From NCBI GenBank assembly GCA_024398995.1, contig JAKSIE010000001.1, positions 1-64,000 on the forward strand: DNA of 64,000 bases, in the 5' to 3' direction. The notes beneath the pieces were generated by a model. The model saw only the letters and a list, made by a program, of their open reading frames with translations, did not search any database and was not told the DNA's origin. Below, one piece after another: positions 36,084 through 40,984 of the stretch. How positions within the stretch are numbered: position 1 is the stretch's first letter; every line of letters starts with the position of its first letter. The translations under genes and the position numbers were made by a program. The stretch comes from Fibrobacter sp. Lineage in GTDB: Bacteria; Fibrobacterota; Fibrobacteria; Fibrobacterales; Fibrobacteraceae.

Positions 36084-37193
36084 ATGAAGTCTAAATTTTT
36101 GAAGATGGCGATTGCCGCCGCTGCCGCTTTGGCTTTTGTCAATTGTGGGGAATCCTCCAATCCCGCTGATCCGGGTTCTGATGCTCTTAATTCATCATCC
36201 TCTGCCGAAATCGCTGGTCCTGAGTCCAGTGCCGCTGAACCGCAGGTTGGTGAATCCAGCTCTTCCGTAGATGTTGACGGTCCTGCTGTCGGTGAATCCA
36301 GTTCTTCCGCAGATGTTGCTAGCCCTGTTGTTGGAGTTTCCAGCTCTAGCGAAGAGCCCACTGTTTCTTCTTCCTCCGCGGAACCTGAAGTTCCCAAGGG
36401 AATCTTCCTTGCTAACGATACCGACGAAAACAAGGATTACATGGAAGTAGAATACTTCACTAACACCGGTGATAACGGTGGTGGCGTCCTTGCCTATCCC
36501 AAGCGTCTTTCCGATACCCAGAAGCATGGTGTTGTGCTGTGGGGCCCGGGTGGTGGTGAAAAGCCGGGTAAATATGAAGGTATCATTCGTCGTCTTGCAT
36601 CCCATGGCTTTGTCGTGATTGCTACCAGCGAATCTCCTGATGGCATTGACCGTGGTAAACCCGCTCTTGACTGGCTTGAAAAGAAGAACAATACCCCGGG
36701 CGATCCGCTGTACCAGAAACTGGATATGACCAAGGTGGGAGCCTCCGGTCACTCCATGGGTGGTCTCCAGTCCGAAGAAATGCTTATCCGTGACGATCGC
36801 GTGATTACAGCTGTTTTGAACAATAGTGGTGACATGGGTCATTCTGATGCTACTAGAATTCCCGCAACAAAGACGTTTGCCATTGTCTATGGTGAAGGTG
36901 GTATGGAACGTCCCAATGCCGAAGGTGACTATAACAACCCTGGCGTTAAGGCTCCTGGTTGCCTGATTAAGATGTCTGGTGGTCAGGGCAATGAATGTCA
37001 GCAGGGTGAATGTGGCTGGGGCCACGGTTCTGGTCCTTGGGGTGGCATGGCTGCTACCGTTGCCTGGATGCGTTGGCACCTGGGTGGCGAAGACTTCCGT
37101 AAGGCAGATTTCGTTGGCGCTACCGGTCGATACATTGATGGCGCTATCATTGGCCAACAGGGCAACTGGAAGGGTCAGTGCAAGAACTTCTAG
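36084..37193 (+). CDS. Alpha/beta-hydrolase lipoprotein with Ser-rich stalk
   Basis: A 369-residue lipoprotein. The lipobox VNC gives a lipidated C21. Residues 24-105 are a stalk of repeated ESSSS-type units (GESSSSVDVDGPAV, GESSSSADVASPVV). The alpha/beta-hydrolase domain follows: GVVLWGPGGGEKPGKYEGIIRRLASHGFVVIA resembles the oxyanion region, and VGASGHSMGGLQ holds the nucleophile Ser. WGHGSGPWGGM may supply the catalytic His. Members include poly-ester and acetyl-xylan esterases of the PETase/chlorophyllase-like group. An esterase acting on cell wall esters is plausible; the substrate is not shown. AAAGGAGTAGGACTA precedes the ATG. Confidence 0.75.
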   Translation: MKSKFLKMAIAAAAALAFVNCGESSNPADPGSDALNSSSSAEIAGPESSAAEPQVGESSSSVDVDGPAVGESSSSADVASPVVGVSSSSEEPTVSSSSAEPEVPKGIFLANDTDENKDYMEVEYFTNTGDNGGGVLAYPKRLSDTQKHGVVLWGPGGGEKPGKYEGIIRRLASHGFVVIATSESPDGIDRGKPALDWLEKKNNTPGDPLYQKLDMTKVGASGHSMGGLQSEEMLIRDDRVITAVLNNSGDMGHSDATRIPATKTFAIVYGEGGMERPNAEGDYNNPGVKAPGCLIKMSGGQGNECQQGECGWGHGSGPWGGMAATVAWMRWHLGGEDFRKADFVGATGRYIDGAIIGQQGNWKGQCKNF

Positions 37194-37449: not shown

Positions 37450-38679
37450 ATGAACGCAGCTATTCTTACTAACGAATTCCCGCCGGAAATCTACGGCGGT
37501 GCAGGTATTCACGTTAAGTTCCTGACCCAGGAACTGGCAAAGCTTTGCCATGTAGAAGCCCGTTGTTTTGGCGCCCAGAATGATGACGCCGACAATATTC
37601 GCGCCATCGGCTTTAGCCGCAAGCTGGGATTGAATCCTAAGGATGACCGCTTCCAGAAGATTTTCAAGCCCCTGGATATCAACTTGCAGTGGGCTGCAAC
37701 TATGGATGATATCGACGTTATCCATTGCCACACCTGGTACAGCCACTTTGGCGGCGTTCTCGCTTCCCGCCTGTTGCAGTGCCCCTTGATTTTGACCACC
37801 CACTCTCTGGAACCGCACCGCCCGTGGAAGGCTGAACAGCTGGGTGACGGCGGCTACGCCATGAGCTGCTGGATTGAACGTACCGCCTACGAAGCTGCCG
37901 ACGGCGTCATCGCAGTGAGCGAAGGTATGAAGCGCGACGTGATGAAACTTTACGGCGTTCCCGAAGATCGCGTGAAGGTGATCTACAACGGTATCGACCC
38001 GGACTTCTACAAACCCACCTTCAGCAACGGCATCCTGGAAAAGTGGGGCGTGGATCCCAACAAGCCGTTTGTGCTGTTCGTTGGCCGCATTACCCGCCAG
38101 AAGGGCATTAGCCAGCTGATTCAGGCCATTCCCCAGATCGACAAGAACGCACAGGTAGTTCTCTGCGCTGGCGCTCCCGACACTCAGGAACTTGCCGACG
38201 AATGCAAGGCCCTCATCGAGGAAGTCCAGAAGACCCGCGAAGGTGTGGTGTGGATTCAGGAACCGGTTCCTCACGAGGAACTCCGCGTTCTCTACAGCCA
38301 CGCAACTGTATTTGCAACCCCGTCTCTCTACGAACCTTTCGGCATTATCAATCTTGAAGCTATGAGCTGCGGTACTCCTGTGGTGGGAAGCGCCGTGGGT
38401 GGCATTCCCGAAATCATCGTGGATGGCGAAACCGGCTTCCTGGTTCCCCTGAAGGCAGTTTCCGAGACCAACTTCGAACCTGCCGACCCCAAGGCATTCC
38501 AGACCGATTTCGCAAACAAGCTGAACACCATTCTGGCTAACCCCGAAATGGCAAAGAAGATGGGCGAAGTGAGCCGCAAGCGCGCTATCGACGTCTTTAG
38601 CTGGAAGGCAATCGCCAAGCAGACCTACGACTTCTACCAGGAATGCATTGAGCGTTACAAGCGCGAAGGCAAGCGCTAA
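37450..38679 (+). CDS. glgA: Glycogen synthase, GT4 family
   Basis: A GT4 glucosyltransferase of 409 residues, matching the actinobacterial-type glycogen synthase group. It extends alpha-1,4-glucan from ADP- or UDP-glucose. The N-terminal FPPEIYGGAGIHVKFLTQELAK is the donor/acceptor loop with the GGAG motif. HCHTWYSHFGG and LTTHSLEPHRPWK follow. The C-terminal domain has FVGRITRQKGI and the E-x7-E motif in PSLYEPFGIINLEAMSCGTPVVGSAVGG. Glycogen storage is a known major trait of Fibrobacter. The ribosome site TGGAGATATT precedes the ATG. Maltose-1-phosphate synthesis (GlgM-type) is an alternative role. Confidence 0.9.
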   Translation: MNAAILTNEFPPEIYGGAGIHVKFLTQELAKLCHVEARCFGAQNDDADNIRAIGFSRKLGLNPKDDRFQKIFKPLDINLQWAATMDDIDVIHCHTWYSHFGGVLASRLLQCPLILTTHSLEPHRPWKAEQLGDGGYAMSCWIERTAYEAADGVIAVSEGMKRDVMKLYGVPEDRVKVIYNGIDPDFYKPTFSNGILEKWGVDPNKPFVLFVGRITRQKGISQLIQAIPQIDKNAQVVLCAGAPDTQELADECKALIEEVQKTREGVVWIQEPVPHEELRVLYSHATVFATPSLYEPFGIINLEAMSCGTPVVGSAVGGIPEIIVDGETGFLVPLKAVSETNFEPADPKAFQTDFANKLNTILANPEMAKKMGEVSRKRAIDVFSWKAIAKQTYDFYQECIERYKREGKR

Positions 38680-38698
38680 TTAGCAGTGGATGAAAAAT

Positions 38699-38908
38699 TG
38701 TAGGCTAGCGTTCGGATGTCGAATCGTTTAGCCTACAAAAATTTTTGTTCATTTATGAATGTGCCTGCGGAATGAAGGAAAATTGTAGGTCATGACTGCA
38801 GTACAGCGAGGTTTAGCCTACACTTCCTCAAAAACGCATCTCATAAAAACAAAAATTTGTGTGTAAAATTGTAGGCTAGACAACTAGTCAACAGGGTGTT
38901 GGCCTACA
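38699..38908. repeat. Three 39-bp inverted-repeat units with constant arms and variable centres
   Basis: Units at 38699-38737, 38784-38822 and 38870-38908 are each exactly 39 bp. Each has TGTAGGCTA (TGTAGGTCA in unit 2) at the left, TAGCCTACA (TGGCCTACA in unit 3) at the right, and 21 bases between that differ in every copy. The starts are 85 and 86 bp apart. The left arm is preceded by AATT each time. Centres contain small palindromes of their own (TTCG-N5-CGAA, ACTGCAGT, ACTAGT). The array fills the gap between convergent glgA and the DsbD-like gene. Confidence 0.85.
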
Positions 38909-38959
38909 AAAAAGAAACCCATTTGCAAGAATCGGGAACCTCGGGGGATTCCTCAGGTT

Positions 38960-40984
38960 TTATTTCCCAGTTATCTTCTCCACGATGCCGCCGGTGGTTA
39001 GCAGTTCCGGCAGTACAATCTGCTTGCTAGCATCGCCCTTGGGGTAGATGGCGTAAGCGGGAACGCCTGACTTGCCGAGGCTTCTGAGGAGTGCATTCAC
39101 TTCGGGTGTTTCGCGGGTCCAGTCCGCCTTGACGCGGGCGACGTTCAGACTGTCCATGGCGCGGGCGAAGTCTTCTCGGCCAATGACGGCGGCTTCGTTT
39201 GCCTTGCAGGTGATGCACCAGTCTGCGGTAACGTCGATGAACACGGTGCGGCCGGCTGCGGCCAGTTCTTCAATTAGGGCGGGACTGTAGCGAAGCCATC
39301 CATCTTCAGTCATCTGTTCTGCCATACGGGCGTCAAAGCGTGCCTGTACCACGGCGTCGTAGCGGTTGCTGAGAACGCCAAACCATATGCCGGCGATAAT
39401 GACGGTTGCTGCTGCAGCTACTCCAATTTCGCGAACAAAGGCGACGCCCGGCGGAGCAATTTTGCCGAGAGCGAAACTTGCGGCGATGGCGAGGGCGGCA
39501 ACAACTGCGAAGAGTCCTACGCCTGTTCCGCCGGCTTGCTCGTTCACGATCCAGAGGAGCCATGCCACGGTGGCAAACAGCAAAACGCCCATGACTTTCT
39601 GCAACTTCACCATCCAGGCGCCGGGCTTCGGCAAGACTTTCAAGAGGGAGGGGAAGGCGCTAACGAGAAGATAGGGGAATGCAAGTCCCAGGCCTGCTGC
39701 GGTAAAGAATAGGAACAGCACCGGAGCGCTGGCGGTAAAGGCGAATCCCATGGCTGTACCCAGGAAGGGGGCGGAACAGGGCGTGCTCAAGAGAACTAGC
39801 AGGGCGCCAGTAAAGAATGCTCCCACAAGGCCGGATTTCTGGCCTGCGGCATCCATCTTGGTGGTGGCGTTCCACGGAAGCCACACCTCGAATACGCCAA
39901 AGAAACTCATGGCGAATGCGGACAGGATAACGACCATGAAGGCGATGAATCCCGGACTCTGGAATTGCATGCCCCAGCCTGCGTTGCCGCCGCTGACTTT
40001 AATGATGGAGACGATGGCTGCCAGAATCCAGAAACTAACCAGAATGCCAGTGGCGGTGCTAAAGCCCAAGGCAAGTAACTTGCCTCGGCTTTCGCCTGCC
40101 TGTTTGATCAGACTGAACAACTTCAGCGAAAGAACAGGCAGAACGCAGGGCATCAGATTCAGGATGACGCCGCCCAGCAAAGCGAATAGCAAAAGCGCCA
40201 AGGTGCCTGCAACGCCTTCCGGTGCAGAGCTTTCGCCGTTTGCTTCCGCGACGAAATTACCAGTAGCGTTTGCCGCAGCAGAATTACCAGCAGCGCTTAC
40301 CGTAGCAGAATTGCCAGTAGCATCTGCAGTTACGGAATCTTCGGCGTTTGCCGCAGCCCACTGAGCCGCAAGATCTAATTCCTTATTTTCAGAATTTGCC
40401 TGTTCGTTTTTTTTTAAATCGGCGCTGCTCTCGCCGCCGTTCATATTGCCCTTCGAACTGCCGAAACGATCGCTCAGCGAAATAGTCTTCTTTGCAGGGG
40501 CCAGACAAATGGAATTGTCGCATGCCTGGTAATGGAAGGTGACCTTGGTTGAGAGGCTGTCGTAACCAGCAGTACTTACACTATCGATGGGGAGTTCCAC
40601 CTGGAAGTTCCCACGGAAAACCAGGTTCTCCAAATCCAATGCCTCGCTGTATTCCTTGATGGGAGTCGGCCACTTGGGTTCCCCAAAGAAAATGCCCTGG
40701 GCTTCCACGTCAATGGAAGACGGCTTCAGAAATTCTTCGGCGGCAATATTGGCGTTGACGTGCCAGTTGTCCGGAATGATGATGTTGACAATCAACTTGG
40801 AGTCCGCTTTCAGCGCGCCAACAGAATAGTCCATCCACATTTCCGGAGGAGGCATATTGTTCATGTTGAAATTCTGTGCGGAGGTTGTCAAGGGCAAGAC
40901 TAGTAAAAAGGCAAGGAACAATGCACTTTGCAAACAATTGTTGGCAAAATTTCTAGAACCCTTTTTTTTCTCATTCATTTTCAT
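38960..40984 (-). CDS. dsbD: Thiol:disulfide interchange protein, DsbD-like
   Basis: A 674-residue inner-membrane protein that moves electrons from cytoplasmic thioredoxin to the periplasm. The signal peptide is about 1-36. The N-terminal periplasmic domain (about 45-170) has the Cys pair in YQACDNSICLAP. A linker of about 80 residues rich in Ala, Asn and Thr contains repeats of AxGNSA. The membrane core has eight or so helices, with the redox Cys in LMPCVLPVLSLK and STPCSAPFLGTA. The C-terminal thioredoxin domain has DVTADWCITCK. All three Cys pairs are present, so it should be active. The start with SD GGGTGA at 40984 is reasonable; a second ATG is two codons inside. Confidence 0.9.
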   Translation of the reverse strand: MKMNEKKKGSRNFANNCLQSALFLAFLLVLPLTTSAQNFNMNNMPPPEMWMDYSVGALKADSKLIVNIIIPDNWHVNANIAAEEFLKPSSIDVEAQGIFFGEPKWPTPIKEYSEALDLENLVFRGNFQVELPIDSVSTAGYDSLSTKVTFHYQACDNSICLAPAKKTISLSDRFGSSKGNMNGGESSADLKKNEQANSENKELDLAAQWAAANAEDSVTADATGNSATVSAAGNSAAANATGNFVAEANGESSAPEGVAGTLALLLFALLGGVILNLMPCVLPVLSLKLFSLIKQAGESRGKLLALGFSTATGILVSFWILAAIVSIIKVSGGNAGWGMQFQSPGFIAFMVVILSAFAMSFFGVFEVWLPWNATTKMDAAGQKSGLVGAFFTGALLVLLSTPCSAPFLGTAMGFAFTASAPVLFLFFTAAGLGLAFPYLLVSAFPSLLKVLPKPGAWMVKLQKVMGVLLFATVAWLLWIVNEQAGGTGVGLFAVVAALAIAASFALGKIAPPGVAFVREIGVAAAATVIIAGIWFGVLSNRYDAVVQARFDARMAEQMTEDGWLRYSPALIEELAAAGRTVFIDVTADWCITCKANEAAVIGREDFARAMDSLNVARVKADWTRETPEVNALLRSLGKSGVPAYAIYPKGDASKQIVLPELLTTGGIVEKITGK

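Follow-up and report, generated by a model that had tools for sequence, protein, structure and literature searches.

Three palindromes between two convergent genes of a Fibrobacter sp. genome are candidate docking sites, probably for a protein encoded elsewhere in the same genome. Arrays of this kind also accompany homologs of that protein in Clostridia, and we consider it likely that array and protein form a protein-operator pair, the array being a multi-site operator for a partner with a predicted PD-(D/E)XK nuclease-like C-terminal domain. We computed directly the linkage of gene and array, the arms private to each protein type, the helical phasing of the dyads, the conservation of the arms, the covariation of arm and protein, and the nuclease-like fold.

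The array spans 210 bp (38699..38908) of the window, by which we mean the whole 64,000-nucleotide stretch that was analyzed, and consists of three dyads without strand assignment, 8 turns apart on the same helix face. Unit 1 (38699..38737) reads TGTAGGCTA - 21 bp - TAGCCTACA; unit 2 (38784..38822) reads TGTAGGTCA - 21 bp - TAGCCTACA, its left arm varying at YY; and unit 3 (38870..38908) reads TGTAGGCTA - 21 bp - TGGCCTACA. Together, they fill the convergent intergenic gap between glgA (glycogen synthase GlgA, TIGR02149; 37450..38679, plus strand), whose stop codon is 20 bp from the array, and a DsbD-like protein-disulfide reductase gene (38960..40984, minus strand), whose best match is below the curated cut-off. 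At chance level, i.e., in 100 dinucleotide shuffles of the window, there was a mean of 0.01 matches and never 3. The original prediction of three 39-bp inverted repeats, starting 85 and 86 bp apart, is thus confirmed in coordinates, length, and spacing. That prediction had placed an arm change in unit 3 alone; the right arm of unit 3 is indeed altered, but the left arm of unit 2 departs as well. Because of these two arms (TGGCCTACA and TGTAGGTCA, respectively), the half-site is better written TGTAGGYYA. Integron attC sites end in GTTRRRY/RYYYAAC, which the TGTAGGYYA arms lack, and the repeats are inverted dyads, not the direct repeats of CRISPR; the layout matches neither, as had been predicted. 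Scans for tRNAs and promoters returned nothing for the window array. Elsewhere in the window, a 42-bp tandem repeat (36252-36347) in a 369-aa ORF encodes a serine-rich linker.

Searching the whole source genome (2,818,590 bases in 124 contigs, 84.7% complete) for further copies, a check suggested with the original prediction, recovered 14 units in five arrays of 3, 3, 3, 3, and 2 units, on contigs C1 (the window), C62, C103 (two arrays), and C101. The four three-unit arrays are spaced at 85/86 bp, and the two units on C101 are 171 bp apart, i.e., two periods. These arrays have their arms alone in common; centers and linkers differ in every unit. A second genome of the genus (G024) also has five arrays and 14 units with the window's arms, with one spacing of 75 bp, which is 85 minus one helical turn. 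Between the orthologous arrays of the two genomes (four of the five arrays of the source genome were compared), divergence is 5.6% in arms, 20.3% in linkers, and 25.9% in centers. Half-sites that are conserved while their surroundings drift are a feature of the operator type.

Inverted-repeat arms can pair, and the original prediction had offered as one option a family of structured RNAs, in which the units would be transcribed and each would fold with a 9-bp stem. In the 28 units, however, 25 of 252 arm positions are asymmetric; 12 of these are wobble-compatible and 13 are non-pairing, which argues that the arm is kept as a half-site in its own right and not as a stem. Also against an RNA are the spacing in whole turns of the DNA helix, described below, and the Rfam search, which gave no match for the window at gathering scores and one weak array match (E 0.99) far below the cut-off. 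We regard a structured RNA as very improbable.

Helical phasing extends well beyond the window. A period of 10.58 bp fits 136 spacings best, with a resultant of 0.854 and a phase near zero, and 0 of 2000 random sets came near these values. This set combines 83 spacings from 41 adjacent arrays that are distinct by spacing set (adjacent arrays of identical spacing set were counted once) with 53 from dispersed arrays, each distance being entered once per array. It includes doubtful adjacent arrays (e.g., L192 and L197) and orthologous, hence non-independent, dispersed arrays, but neither could account for an effect of this size. Held-out loci gave a period of 10.54 bp (resultant 0.83, 28 spacings, 0/2000). 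The number of turns per spacing varies freely, from ~5 to 17; the roughly eight turns predicted for the window are correct, and whole-turn spacing holds generally across arrays. Whole-turn spacing on B-DNA suggests a duplex that is bound on one face by something.

We considered and rejected the view that the window's arms, found in exact form in one other genome of 60 searched, are an oddity of one species, because the same gap in other genomes has arrays with other arms. The glgA-dsbD gap of G063, G011, and G009 contains dyad arrays with arms TAGGACTA...TAGTCCTA. When the array of the source genome (G000) was aligned with these, the alignment score was reached by 1 (G063), 20 (G011), and 163 (G009) of 300 shuffles. 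The arrays are thus mostly non-homologous in sequence despite occupying the same site, and we refrain from claiming in-place rewriting of the arms. The exact TAGGACTA dyad occurs in 9 of the 61 genomes of the genus search (26 dyads in G009 and 32 in G033), and TAGGACTA dyads are also arrayed in Clostridiales of the rumen and omasum. Distances between neighboring dyads are 53, 63/64, 74, 84/85, 95, 106, 117, 127, 137, and so on. One single TAGGACTA dyad occupies the same place in two genomes (L072:1516-1551 on contig C93 of the source genome and L073:4388-4423 in G009), 29 bp past the stop codon of an ORF (407/409 aa) that weakly matches ricin-B-lectin; the L072 copy is the sole exact TAGGACTA dyad found in the source genome.

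Among the genes that flank arrays, one ORF family recurs: six Fibrobacter genomes with arrays each have one copy of it, directly adjoining one array, and other flanking genes showed no array-specific recurrence. Its proteins have 274-293 aa, with VRSKSE...PDF...WEH, and match no significant model in Pfam or NCBIfam; by sequence, no relative was found among solved structures. The member in the source genome (288 aa, C103:45735-46595) is outside the window, and the array that adjoins it has the window's arms. To score linkage, we used an array finder that accepts at least three dyads with like arms, spaced anywhere between 40 and 200. Such an array was present within 1 kb of the gene for 44 of the 50 homologs from Fibrobacter and 17 of the 22 from Clostridia, compared with 0 of 150 one-kb control pieces (drawn from the window and 22 glgA loci only) and 0 of 207 shuffled flanks; some of the homologs with no array (6 and 5, respectively) are at contig ends. 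The score threshold of 36, chosen after the first loci had been seen, was applied unchanged to 29 held-out Clostridia loci, 15 of which had an array under these fixed criteria. Under a looser rule, arrays appeared at 7 of the 14 held-out misses (controls, 1/62 and 0/62), and 7 of the 29 held-out homologs had no visible array even then. In the first Clostridia set, the array is downstream of the gene in 12 cases and upstream in 6, which weakens promoter control as a general role. The longest array, fourteen AGTCAGCTT dyads at a regular 51-52 bp, is beside a Clostridia homolog (L191:718-1425).

The arms vary with the protein. Arms associated with homologs include TGTAGG, TAGGACTA, TGGGTAAA, TAGAACTT, TGCTAC, GTACCTATAAA, GGGGCGTATAAA, TACATACTA, GGTTACTA, TACGTACA, TGTCAC, TACGACTAA, TTAGACC, and AGTCAGCTT. 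Paralogs in the same genome mostly have different arms, although two in G082 have related TACATAC arms; the GGTTACTA arms of a second paralog in the source genome also recur in arrays at two sites apart from its gene. Arms agree where two proteins reach 90% identity or more (16 pairs, mean similarity 0.99), and below 50% protein identity arm similarity is near background. Across 33 representatives of less than 70% identity, the correlation between arm similarity and protein identity is modest (Mantel 0.263, 5 of 5000 permutations). We then compared identity in 10-residue windows with arm similarity after removing C-terminal identity, and a single peak emerged at residues 56-65 of the G000 protein (partial 0.33, null maximum 0.255, 0 of 2000 permutations). 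In one set of close relatives whose arms differ, protein identity is 20-38% over residues 1-60 and 74-97% from residue 61. Moreover, residues 36, 38, and 39 of the L140 fragment, right after a conserved LRI, are fixed by arm type. This covariation is the strongest evidence suggesting that the dyads are recognized by the family protein and not by a neighbor, and the reader of the arm is probably the strand around residues 56-65, in the N-terminal domain.

The C-terminal 125 residues were modeled with AF2 from nine sequences at high confidence (pLDDT 90.9, pTM 0.84). The VIA structure aligner placed the catalytic domain of I-Bth0305I first (Z 9.2, 2.8 Å over 89 residues), with Bax1 (Z 8.7), TnsA (7.8), Vsr (7.3), and VRR_NUC (7.2) also ranked high, where a Z below 8 can reflect a common arrangement; Foldseek against the PDB returned none at E <= 0.001, its best match being Bax1 (3.4e-3). 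In PADLOC, four family members match the C-termini of PDC-S68 models (best 1e-24, 1.1e-23, 3.2e-22, and 4.5e-27), and two match the HEAT_CxxC_PD-DEXK model (E 5e-5 and 4e-4). Six residues (R180, K182, E184, D215, E230, and H231) do not vary among 64 sequences, so that the acidic active-site residues of the PD-(D/E)XK type (E184, D215, and E230) are conserved. We predict a PD-(D/E)XK fold, close to that of Vsr and of homing-endonuclease domains. The full-length model, from two sequences, is poor (pLDDT 44), leaving the N-terminal fold uncertain. We also observed a sub-type with an in-frame insertion in the nuclease-like domain, at profile position ~205-209, that splits the family-profile match (e.g., G009:C28:710-1639, with similar cases in G063:C28, G011:C13, G089:C27, and G083:C33).

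The Fibrobacter profile found no relative in viral contigs. With other profiles, viral contigs of IMG/VR (L212-L218, L220, and L225) were found to encode relatives of the nuclease-like domain, which in L212-L218 ends RecD-like helicases of ~1,100 residues, some of which are truncated where the contig ends. No phased array was found beside these seven helicase genes, and a domain that occurs in helicases without arrays implies that arrays go with the N-terminal domain.

The family is patchy: it has matches in 49 of 80 Fibrobacter genomes, with up to eight per genome, in 51 of 167 Fibrobacterota genomes and 3 of 40 genera, in 6 of the 7 Clostridia genomes reached via dyads, and in 45 of 118 genomes of one Clostridia order. 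On a FastTree tree, 50 Fibrobacter homologs form one clade among 14 Clostridia ones; with the rooting of the tree as given, the simplest reading is that one transfer occurred between gut phyla and was followed by multiplication. Two alternatives bear on this distribution. First, the palindromes could be non-autonomous mobile elements resembling REPINs, with the protein cutting the dyads and the arrays arising as by-products of transposition or repair copying. Gene and array do behave like an acquired unit (~1.27 kb at the BatD locus is present in G000 and G024 and missing from the same locus in G025, G036, and G014), several paralogs share a genome, and the predicted fold is nearest to homing-endonuclease, Bax1, TnsA, and Vsr domains. 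However, dispersed arrays of one genome are alike in their arms only and hence are not recent copies, phasing and conserved arms over diverged linkers suggest selection at each site, and the one junction read showed no evident target-site duplication. We judge mobility of this kind quite unlikely. Second, the protein could serve in defense, as a nuclease parked on chromosomal arrays until phage attack frees it or aims it at incoming DNA. This would suit a patchy, multi-copy, diversifying family with invariant catalytic-type residues and a C-terminal domain in common with the large helicases modeled as PDC-S68, but the seven helicase relatives have no adjoining phased arrays, and arrays in the chromosome would be self-targets in need of protection; we consider this unlikely. 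In the gap before BatD in G025 (L202), a hairpin-rich, repeat-like stretch (GTCATTGCGAGGAGCGAAGCGACGTGGCAATC) stands in place of gene and array.

Thirty arrays or single dyads are located away from the partner gene. Of the 28 with an ORF call on both sides (orthologs counted apart), 21 are between convergent ORFs, versus 4 of 17 window gaps of at least 120 bp; single orientation calls may err, since G063 was called -- though its glgA is +, and C101 may be ++. Many of these dispersed arrays are 20-50 bp past a stop codon, and A and T tracts flank many arms. Such a placement would suit tandem or bidirectional intrinsic terminators serving convergent genes; tandem terminators, for the minus-strand gene, were another of the options raised originally. 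Yet a terminator scan of 38400-39300 found 0 sites versus 1.6 in shuffles (its loop limit of 8 would miss loops as long as these), and terminators would leave the phasing, the private arms, and the linked gene unexplained; we hold this explanation to be highly improbable. Two TAGGACTA arrays (L083:3098-3325 and L093:2825-3137) are exceptions to the convergent rule: each is in a wide gap whose flanking ORFs look divergent, and a large ORF common to both genomes has the array upstream of it.

Returning to the protein-operator reading, we infer binding, dimers, cooperativity, and autoregulation from these sequence patterns. The arm would be a half-site read as double-stranded DNA, and each dyad would hold one protein dimer or higher form. 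With an integer number of turns between dyads, the dimers would line up on one face and could join in one cooperative complex. At the protein's own gene, such a complex would most likely control expression of that gene. At dispersed sites between convergent gene ends, a nucleoprotein block or insulator against read-through would be the most likely role, and this insulator step is the weakest of the scheme and doubtful. The nuclease-like domain may nick or cut under some condition.

We tentatively suggest, as something that is possible rather than probable, that these proteins and arrays represent a widespread, undescribed gut-bacterial class of orthogonal nuclease-and-operator systems. A genome would encode as many as about a dozen PD-(D/E)XK-like proteins, every one of them having its own fast re-evolving recognition strand and private phased arrays on which the nuclease would cluster on the same face. 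By serving as self tags, guard sites, or insulators, the arrays would keep the nuclease in place, regulate it, or direct it, and code and sites would co-evolve. If so, the class would be a natural, diversified library of DNA recognition, and a common unnamed family would turn out to be compact DNA readers with dozens of specificities, whose sites are legible beside each gene. The recognition code (residues ~56-65) would be directly testable by swaps and same-face assembly by half-turn insertions, and the arrays would shed new light on the marking or insulation of convergent gene ends in bacteria, or on how a nuclease is restrained.

How does this system compare with known ones? REP/REPIN-RAYT systems and BIMEs (PMC3116915, PMC2817692) resemble it in several respects: short palindromes are dispersed between genes, a gene for a cognate DNA-processing protein (here of another protein family) adjoins one repeat copy, a genome has several independent protein-repeat pairs, and the repeat sequence follows the protein lineage. 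The present system differs in that the partner is of the PD-(D/E)XK type and not a Y1 HUH transposase, that the source genome has 14 units rather than hundreds, that no units are near-identical and arms alone are alike, and that constant arms with free centers follow strict helical phasing. A search for the Y1 (HUH) transposase (PF01797) that defines REPIN-RAYT systems gave 0 matches in the source genome (84.7% complete), and the domain is present in 5 of 14 control genomes. The REP-like option of the original prediction thus holds by analogy only, as no Y1/RAYT transposase was found in that genome and the partner is a nuclease-like protein of another fold. In the open-licence PMC papers searched, we found no account of such arrays or of the protein. 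Within that literature, we regard the system as new in kind, given this silence, the lack of a Y1 transposase match, and the differences from REPIN-RAYT in copy number and phasing.

The nearest solved fold of the C-terminal domain is the EDxHD/Vsr-like I-Bth0305I (Z 9.2; PMC3943268), which, according to that review, dimerizes on a target of nearly 60 bp. As proposed for our family, a compact nuclease is joined to a separate DNA-binding part, with a dimer on a very long target; our family differs in that its gene is outside any intron or intein and its sites form multi-dyad arrays. An EDxHD feature is absent, namely an interrupted target: sites are retained next to the gene and at four further places in the host. 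The candidate defense proteins PDC-S68 (PADLOC) have the same C-terminal domain, but with ~1,200 residues they are much larger and lack the N-terminal arm-reading domain, and the helicases in the seven viral contigs come without phased arrays. Cooperative transcription factors use phased operator arrays, in which dyad half-sites at integer-turn spacing are found near the factor's own gene. Of the four options in the original prediction, an operator array comes closest, although the partner gene and the paralog-specific arms were not foreseen. The present arrays share with phased operators their dyad half-sites, their integer-turn spacing, and their location near the protein's gene, and they differ in that the protein has a nuclease-like domain, the arrays also occupy convergent 3' gaps, and the arms are private to each paralog type.
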